DNA of 64,000 nt, from positions 3,765,001-3,829,000 of the forward strand of contig NZ_CP124535.1 of the NCBI RefSeq assembly GCF_029953595.1, read 5' to 3'. Position numbers and translations under genes: made by a program. Shown here in pieces: positions 34,242-47,900 of this stretch. The number at the start of each line of letters is the position of its first letter. Position 1 is the stretch's first letter. The notes below the pieces were generated by a model, which was not told the origin of the DNA, did not search any database, and saw only the letters and a list, made by a program, of their open reading frames with translations. The DNA comes from Fuscovulum ytuae (GTDB lineage: Bacteria; Pseudomonadota; Alphaproteobacteria; Rhodobacterales; Rhodobacteraceae).

Positions 34242-35816
<1,575 letters not shown>

Positions 35817-35853
35817 GGCTGTGGTCCTTGTGCCGTCTTGCTGCTTTTCCTTT

Positions 35854-35938
35854 GGGCGCTGGTCACCTCTGAGCGGTCGCGCCCTTCGGCACGCTCAGAG
35901 GCGGGTAAGGAGAAGCAGGCCACGGGGAGAGAGGGCGC
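35854..35938 (-). promoter_or_regulatory. Candidate leu attenuator: mutually exclusive hairpins
   Basis: Hairpin A pairs CCTCTGAGCG (35901-35892, containing the leader stop codon) with CGCTCAGAGG (35875-35866), a perfect 10-bp stem. Its loop holds GGGCGC (35884-35879). That hexamer can instead pair with GCGCCC inside the leader ORF (35938-35933) or GCGCCC downstream (35859-35854), and the downstream pairing also uses sequence within hairpin A. Ribosome position on the leader should decide which forms. No U tract follows any stem, so the output (Rho, pausing or translation) is not clear. Confidence 0.55.
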
Positions 35939-35981
35939 AAAGCGCTCCCGTCAGCGAAAGGATATGCCGGTCCCGTGTCAT
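35895..35981 (-). CDS. leuA leader peptide (28 aa, leucine-rich)
   Basis: On the minus strand ATG at 35981 opens a 28-codon frame ending TGA at 35897-35895. Nine of its codons encode Leu, including four in a row (CTG CTT CTC CTT, residues 22-25) in the C-terminal GLLLLTRL, as expected for a ribosome-stalling leucine sensor. Its stop codon sits in the 5' arm of a 10-bp hairpin. No Shine-Dalgarno is visible. The nearest promoter-like boxes would put transcript start close to the ATG, so leaderless translation is possible. Leucine leader peptides are established for leu operons of enterics and predicted in other proteobacteria. Confidence 0.72.
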   Translation of the reverse strand: MTRDRHILSLTGALCALSPRGLLLLTRL

Positions 35982-35989
35982 GGGGCGCG

Positions 35990-36017
35990 ACGATACGCAG
36001 GAATTGCCGCAGCGCAA
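35990..36017 (-). promoter_or_regulatory. Candidate leuA leader promoter
   Basis: On the minus strand TTGCGC (36017-36012), 16 bases, then TATCGT (35995-35990) resemble a weak sigma-70 promoter. The ATG of the leader begins nine bases beyond the -10 box. Just upstream, CCGAAAA/TTTTCGG inverted repeats (36020-36026, 36043-36049) and a GCGGGTT direct repeat of 10-base period (36028, 36038) could be a regulator site. Confidence 0.35.
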
Positions 36018-47615: not shown

Positions 47616-47710
47616 GCCGATCGGCGGGCCTGCATGTCGGTTAGGGATTGTATACCGTCGTATCCGAAATTCCCCTTGCCTGACATGTGCCAGTCGGGTT
47701 ACCCAGATTG

Positions 47711-47900
47711 CGTCAGCATCGGGAGAATCCGGCGCACGTGGGCAACCCCGTGGGAGCCGGTGCCGAAGGAGCAACCGCCCCGGTAAACTCTCAGGCAACA
47801 GGACCGTTGCTGGCGAAGAACTCTGGAGAGTGGCGCAGCTGCGCCCGCCGAAGGGATAACGATCTCAGGCGCCCCAATGGGCAGGGACAGAGGGGGCATC
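47711..47900 (+). ncRNA. Tandem glycine riboswitch
   Basis: Two consecutive glycine aptamers are readable. The first (about 47715-47812) has CGGGAGAAT, CCGAAGGAGCAACC and AAACTCTCAGGCAACAGGACCG. The second (about 47812-47898) has CTCTGGAGAGTGG, CCGAAGGGATAACGATCTCAGG and AGGGACAGAGGGGG. They lie immediately upstream of gcvT, as expected for activation of glycine cleavage by glycine. A GGACAGG/CCTGTCC hairpin (47904-47923) follows and may be part of the expression platform; no U-tract terminator is seen, so translation control is likely. Confidence 0.95.

Follow-up and report, generated by a model that had tools for sequence, protein, structure and literature searches.

A conserved leucine-codon leader upstream of leuA in Fuscovulum ytuae and other Alphaproteobacteria, a candidate attenuator resembling the actinobacterial LEU element

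The leader ORF and the leuA locus

The window, by which we mean the whole 64,000-nucleotide stretch of Fuscovulum ytuae DNA analysed here, carries on its minus strand the leuA gene and, upstream of it, an ORF of 28 codons at 35895-35981 whose product is MTRDRHILSLTGALCALSPRGLLLLTRL, followed by a stop. Nine of the 28 codons of MTRDRHILSLTGALCALSPRGLLLLTRL specify leucine, with an uninterrupted LLLL at codons 22-25, and the stop codon TGA (35895-35897) is separated by 78 nt from the leuA ATG at 35816. The segment CCTCTGAGCG (35892-35901) forms 10 perfect pairs with CGCTCAGAGG (35866-35875), which places the stop codon in the 5' arm of a hairpin. All of these particulars, that is, the ORF length, the leucine content and run, the distance to leuA and the position of the stop codon in a 10-bp hairpin arm, had been given in a preliminary description of the DNA, and all were re-found. 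The features of the locus, several of them predicted, are as follows.

36012-36017, minus strand: -35-like hexamer TTGCGC in the predicted promoter of the leader, 16 nt from the -10-like hexamer; most family loci have T 35 nt and 34 nt upstream of the ATG
35990-35995, minus strand: -10-like hexamer TATCGT, ending 8 nt before the leader ATG; a TATAAT-like box is common at 7-8 nt in the family
35895-35981, minus strand: leader ORF, 28 codons with 9 Leu, predicted to be leaderless (5'-terminal AUG), from sequence and conservation
35961-35966, minus strand: CATATC, codons 6-7 (His-Ile), at a fixed distance from the start and frequent in the family
35907-35918, minus strand: element L, Leu codons CTG, CTT, CTC and CTT (CTGCTTCTCCTT), proposed sensor and pairing arm, co-varying with L'
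35892-35901, minus strand: element a, CCTCTGAGCG, holding the leader stop codon; 98.0% of a:a' cells paired in an alignment of 100 genera
35888-35891, minus strand: element c, TGCC, which lengthens the a:a' hairpin by pairing with b; 98.5% of cells paired
35879-35884, minus strand: element b, GGGCGC, in the hairpin loop, with either c or b' as partner (alignment and permutation test)
35866-35875, minus strand: element a', CGCTCAGAGG, pairing with a
35854-35859, minus strand: element b', GCGCCC, predicted to pair with b as a pseudoknot with a:a'; b:b' 92.1% of cells
35841-35852, minus strand: element L', AAGGAAAAGCAG, pairing with L at 11 of 12 positions (minimum-energy fold; own versus swapped pairing)
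35825-35829, minus strand: probable leuA Shine-Dalgarno (SD) sequence AAGGA, read from the sequence, 8 nt before the leuA ATG and here outside L'
34242-35816, minus strand: leuA, 2-isopropylmalate synthase of 524 aa, with HMGL-like and LeuA_dimer domains and matches to solved 2-isopropylmalate synthases

The preliminary description had also held such an ORF to be hard to explain by chance. For the leucine run by itself this did not stand, because LLLL within the last 11 codons occurs in two of the 437 ATG-started ORFs of 15-45 aa in the window, the leader and one other, so that the run alone is no proof. What upholds the claim is conservation across relatives: the frame, the leucine run, the promoter spacing and the paired segments are all conserved, which confirms the leader as real and far beyond chance, and an accidental ORF in a GC-rich intergenic region is an explanation of negligible probability.

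Conservation of the leader, its codons and its promoter

A LeuA search matched 18 of 19 genomes of the genus and 119 of 120 of the family, giving 135 distinct loci. The leader precedes leuA in 132 of the 135 family loci (124 of 126, then eight of nine others), a count in which up to 7 mismatches of 22 were allowed in the anchor motif and for which L028 and L032 needed patterns of their own; under a strict residue pattern the leader was recovered in 97 of 126. Locus L283 ends before the leuA start, and among the family loci with full coverage only L121 and L127 yielded no leader; in these two a covariance model was likewise without a match at E 0.01. L127 has an AT-rich region upstream of leuA. 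The leaders of the family measure 11 to 41 residues. They are present in Paracoccus denitrificans, Paracoccus ferrooxidans and Phaeobacter inhibens, and a leader also occurs in Methylobacterium bullatum, a member of another order; in the P. ferrooxidans and Phaeobacter loci no gene is annotated over the leader in the PLSDB gene table, which is incomplete. In Phaeobacter inhibens M650 (NZ_CP081282.1), leuA and its leader lie on a plasmid record of 17.9 kb.

Five loci (L035, L079, L092, L101 and L110), and by sequence reading also L131 and L134, have a cupin-like gene between the leader and leuA, so that the leader precedes both. The two of these genes that were tested, in L035 and L101, contain Pfam Cupin_2. 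The cupin-like gene is possibly a new member of the leucine regulon.

The reading frame was examined with one locus per genus: whichever ATG had, 6-8 nt upstream, the best -10-like box was taken, regardless of frame. From this promoter-linked ATG an uninterrupted frame leads to the conserved stop in 103 of 106 genera, where chance would put about one-third in frame. Counted back from the stop, leucine stands at residues -4, -5, -6 and -7 in 102, 81, 97 and 78 of 103 loci, respectively. The leucine codons near the leader end are also unusual, with CTA making up 16.5% and CTT 37.8% of them (n=492), compared with 0.3% and 7.9% in the leuA genes of the same loci (n=3844). These are the codons that we would expect of a sensitive sensor, though part of the excess may come from the pairing constraint described below. 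The comparison of leuA upstream regions that the preliminary description had called for thus came out in favor of its proposed leucine sensor: the conserved frame, the conserved run and the rare leucine codons strongly support control of leuA by a leucine-codon sensor that we infer to be translated.

In 98 of 124 family loci the leader ATG follows a TATAAT-like -10 box at a distance of 7 or 8 nt, some of the other loci having a tandem second ATG; the base immediately 5' of the ATG is C in 89 of 103 loci, and T is found 35 nt upstream of it in 94 and 34 nt upstream in 88 of 103. From the box spacing, the C before the ATG and these two T positions we predict that transcription starts at or beside the leader AUG, and the leader RNA is therefore probably leaderless. 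Leaderless mRNAs are frequent in Caulobacter, where one study gives 375 (PMC4117421). A leaderless leader also precedes trpE in Sinorhizobium meliloti, namely trpL with its peptide peTrpL (PMC10117765); the two systems are alike in being alphaproteobacterial amino acid leaders with RNA from the AUG, predicted in our case, and differ in that trpL is a Trp attenuator for trpE and not a Leu leader for leuA.

The motif CATATC is fixed at +16 to +21 of the leader, with codon 6 being CAT in 59 and codon 7 ATC in 56 of 103 loci. Of 62 His codons at position 6, CAT accounts for 59, whereas leuA prefers CAC, so that the motif looks like a DNA or RNA signal beyond peptide conservation. Pairing between CATATC and other parts of the leader RNA was not convincing (z 2.1, 0.1 and -2.8).

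Pairing of the leucine codons and the enclosed hairpin

In the window, the four leucine codons of CTGCTTCTCCTT match AAGGAAAAGCAG (35841-35852) at 11 of 12 positions, and the helix is part of the minimum-energy fold. Here 24 nt separate the end of L' from the leuA ATG, and the probable SD lies between them. Global duplex energies between L and the leuA upstream region proved uninformative (mean z versus shuffles -0.22; p below 0.05 in 6 of 116 loci; median rank of the own partner 38.5 of 116); the GC-rich flanks of L seem to dominate them. They were replaced by a score for contiguous helices, set against permuted partners and against swaps between closest relatives. These pairing tests left out L032, L072 and L128 and loci whose leader lies <40 or >215 nt from leuA, which kept 97 or 114 loci. 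Over 97 loci, one per genus, the own-genome L:L' score was 16.78 against 13.92 ± 0.25 for permuted partners, a value reached by none of 2000 permutations. Control segments upstream gave z 0.3, 2.1 and -0.2, and segments around the stop and over a' gave 2.5 and -2.2; the segment after the stop, which holds b, whose partner b' falls partly within the tested region, gave z 4.4. Shared ancestry was guarded against by pairing closest relatives by LeuA sequence (leader-leuA distance 60-215 nt) and swapping their segments. The own partner was better in 40 of 54 such pairs, worse in two and tied in 12, and for a control segment it was better in 28 and worse in 20 of 56.

A strong L:L' helix is found in 60 of 91 loci, with the partner segment ending at a median of 18 nt before the leuA ATG (IQR 16-22). 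Of these helices, 28 contain an SD-like motif and nine end within 12 nt of the ATG; in most family loci, L' lies upstream of the SD and not on it.

The hairpin between L and L' is very conserved in sequence across the family. Alignment A1, which covers 100 of 107 genera and leaves out L028, L032, L072, L085, L124, L126 and L128 as incomplete or divergent, has a:a' paired in 98.0% of cells, b:b' in 92.1%, and c:b, within the a:a' hairpin, in 98.5%. Together, a:a' and b:b' show 20 cells changed on both sides versus 3.1 in shuffles. For b:b' by itself the corresponding figures are eight and 1.3, and shuffles reach its number of double-changed pairs in 147 of 500 and its pair types in 18 of 500, so that A1 alone would provide moderate evidence for this predicted helix. 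The permutation test of b:b' gave an own score of 20.26 versus 18.01 (z 9.7, 95 loci). Since the elements follow each other in the order a, b, a', b', a predicted pseudoknot of a:a' with b:b' may form, or b may act as a switch between c and b'.

Other alphaproteobacterial families share much of this arrangement. In an even sample of 289 genomes of the class, a covariance model of the element, R1, gave matches (E up to 0.05) in at least 54, including four from the window's own family; as the filters were strict, 54 is a lower bound. Among the 30 class loci listed, 28 have leuA in the stretch, the two others being L156 and L159. From a class set of 50 loci (L135-L184), 46 were kept, L156, L159 and L177 being without leuA and L157 without the expected stop, and the pairing test was run on 37 after dropping three named Rhodobacterales and six near-duplicates. 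In these families the usual C-terminus of the leader is LLRL(I/T/S)xP or LLLLIRP, the hairpin takes the form CCCCTGAGCG...CGTTCAGGGG, and the leucine codons pair near the leuA start. In 10 of the 37 loci the helix includes an AGGA no more than 12 nt from the ATG, and in L153 it reaches 14 contiguous pairs. The L:L' score over the 37 loci was 17.63 versus 14.60 ± 0.45 for permuted partners (0 of 2000 permutations; controls z 0.7, 0.2 and -0.7). The helix b:b' was not detectable by the permutation test in 34 loci of these families (z -0.6). Some Alphaproteobacteria have another type of LeuA (L185, L186, L188 and L193, with TIGR00970 over cut-off).

A proposed mechanism and its relation to known systems

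We favor a leucine-responsive attenuator that lacks an intrinsic terminator and in which the leucine codons of L pair with L' before the leuA start, a reading to which we assign a probability of about 0.6. It builds on the computed ORF, frame, leucine run, rare codons, promoter-start spacing and pairings (a:a', b:b', c:b and L:L'), and it proposes leader translation, leaderless initiation, a direction of response and translation initiation as the output. Transcription from the upstream promoter would begin with the A of the leader AUG or right beside it, so that translation of the leader would probably be leaderless. While the RNA is free, L would pair with L', a purine-rich segment just 5' of the leuA ribosome-binding site that overlaps the site in some genera, and the L:L' region would enclose the a:a' hairpin extended by c:b and also, in the window's family, b:b' as an alternative or pseudoknot helix. 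Under leucine shortage, ribosomes would wait on the leucine run with its many rare CTA and CTT codons, cover L and free L', so that leuA could be translated; when leucine is plentiful they would quickly move past the run, which would allow L to re-pair with L' and would lower leuA initiation.

Constrained folding weakly supports such a ribosome-delay mechanism. Over 91 loci of the family, the modelled mean accessibility of the leuA SD rose from 0.577 to 0.631-0.651 with a ribosome stalled on the leucine codons; a control ribosome placed on codon 5 gave 0.588. For the sequence of the window itself the value rose from 0.546 to 0.562, below the 0.604 obtained with the control ribosome. Placing the ribosome at the stop codon makes the SD about as accessible (0.631) as a leucine stall does, so the switch would have to depend on dwell time or on b:b'. 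The folding effect is clearer in the other alphaproteobacteria than in the window's family, with the unpaired SD going from 0.389 to 0.509 (of 35 loci, 18 rose and five fell), at 0.500 in the stop codon state and 0.362 in the control. It is nearly flat in actinobacteria (0.404 to 0.426; up in 23 and down in 17 of 73).

The alternatives differ mainly in what the leader ribosome would act upon. Enteric leu operons carry the leader gene leuL, represented in Rfam by the Leu leader family, and the preliminary description had taken the present leader for the classic form of such a sensor, which would extend the enteric mechanism to this lineage. The likeness of a leucine-codon leader peptide upstream of leuA stands; the terminator does not, since a T-run of ≥4 between the hairpin and leuA is absent in 90 and present in only five of 95 loci, which makes an intrinsic terminator unlikely. 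Transcription attenuation of the enteric type, with a:a' and c:b as antiterminator and b:b' as terminator, could draw on the two partners of b, and its geometry fits if the ribosome is assumed to cover about 12 nt from the A site onward, in which case a ribosome at the stop codon would cover a and c and free b for b', and one stalled at the leucine codons would leave a and c free. Set against this are the lack of a U-tract, with only 11% T in the stretch after the hairpin, the 19-nt loop of b:b' in the window, and the failure of b:b' to be detected in the 34 usable loci of other families, in which the leader and a:a' nevertheless persist. On balance we regard it as improbable.

The main rival to translation initiation as the output is Rho-dependent attenuation, an unlikely though serious candidate, in which the leader ribosome decides on the access of Rho to the T-poor stretch between leader and leuA, with L:L' and b:b' exposing or hiding a Rho site or coupling it to leuA translation. 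The composition of the region 3' of the hairpin (C 32%, A 33%, G 24%, T 11%) suits this, as does the reported uORF-dependent and presumably Rho-dependent attenuation of another gene in Sinorhizobium meliloti (PMC12218461); Rho alone would leave unexplained both the short and fairly fixed distance between L' and the leuA start (the IQR of 16-22 nt in 60 loci) and the merging of L' with the SD in several other families. Much less probable still is a protein-binding RNA structure in which the leucine codons are a mere pairing arm. This was argued by the 2005 authors for the actinobacterial LEU element (PMC1262725) and agrees with the strong sequence conservation of the hairpin, but a pairing arm would need neither a frame conserved in 103 of 106 genera nor an enrichment of rare leucine codons.

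The closest counterpart to the favored attenuator is indeed that LEU element, which precedes leuA in actinobacteria and consists of a leader ORF with a leucine run, a base stem between leucine codons and the leuA SD, a pseudoknot enclosed by the base stem, and an alternative hairpin (Seliverstov et al. 2005, PMC1262725). Its mechanism was left open in 2005, when classical attenuation was judged unlikely and mutation work on leuA of Streptomyces coelicolor was cited as not fitting it (PMC1262725). In a set of 80 actinobacterial leuA loci a leader was called in 75 and not in five, and a:a' (≥7 pairs) and b:b' (≥5 pairs) were re-found in 74 of the 75; a stricter permutation test of b:b', for which 53 of the 75 loci were usable, gave z 5.1, and the stem of leucine codons and SD is displayed for seven loci. 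When R1 was run on 46 of the 80 loci, 14 matched at the leader place at E≤1 (best 8.5e-5) and four matches at E 0.23-0.93 lay elsewhere, matches that may rest on the shared leucine run and base composition.

The window-family element resembles the LEU element in its leader ORF with a leucine run upstream of leuA, in the base stem of leucine codons and a segment before leuA, which co-varies in the window's family, and in the predicted pseudoknot within that stem, with the same order L, a, b, a', b', L'. The alternative hairpin, known for the LEU element from the 2005 text, has a possible equivalent here in c:b inside a:a'. From this likeness of architecture the output is likely to be translation initiation or Rho, not an intrinsic terminator. 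There are differences as well: the LeuA class and the stem sequences are other ones, the stop lies inside stem a here and after it in most actinobacterial loci, and L' is mostly upstream of the SD in the window's family, whereas the LEU stem is on the SD. By analogy, then, the element would work like the LEU element without being classed as a member. Other alphaproteobacterial families keep the leader, the hairpin and the base stem but show no b:b'; common descent is therefore unproven and convergence quite possible.

A broader reading, which we hold tentatively and at somewhat less than even odds, is that of a widespread alphaproteobacterial leucine attenuator with a leaderless start, in which the leucine run (for example, CUU CUC CUU) doubles as the repressor arm by pairing with the region of the leuA start, and which arose independently in two phyla. 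A run such as CUU CUC CUU is close to the anti-SD sequence, and under independent origin the same pseudoknot topology would appear in two phyla because leucine codons complement SD sequences, a simple route by which leucine codons could evolve into a switch. A second large group with a LEU-like layout would make the question left open in 2005 testable in tractable bacteria such as Paracoccus denitrificans, and would explain the control of leuA in a part of the Alphaproteobacteria in which no Rfam family matched.

A leuA leader in Alphaproteobacteria was not found in the literature searched by title and abstract, nor is it mentioned in passages of PMC10117765, PMC4117421, PMC4833913, PMC4842269 and PMC9549626; two older comparative papers cited in this literature, Vitreschak 2004 and Lopatovskaya 2010, may treat it. 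In Corynebacterium glutamicum, a putative leuA leader peptide with four leucine codons appears in transcriptome data, and this leader, an actinobacterial one, is treated there as a case of transcriptional attenuation (PMC4046766). The Rfam 15 covariance models had no match at the place of the leader in the window or in 20 related loci, the single match to the leader region being below cut-off and to a CRISPR repeat model (E 0.3). Elsewhere in the window, they identified a glycine riboswitch at 47710-47816 on the plus strand (score 64.5), about 160 nt before an ORF that we read as aminomethyltransferase-like.
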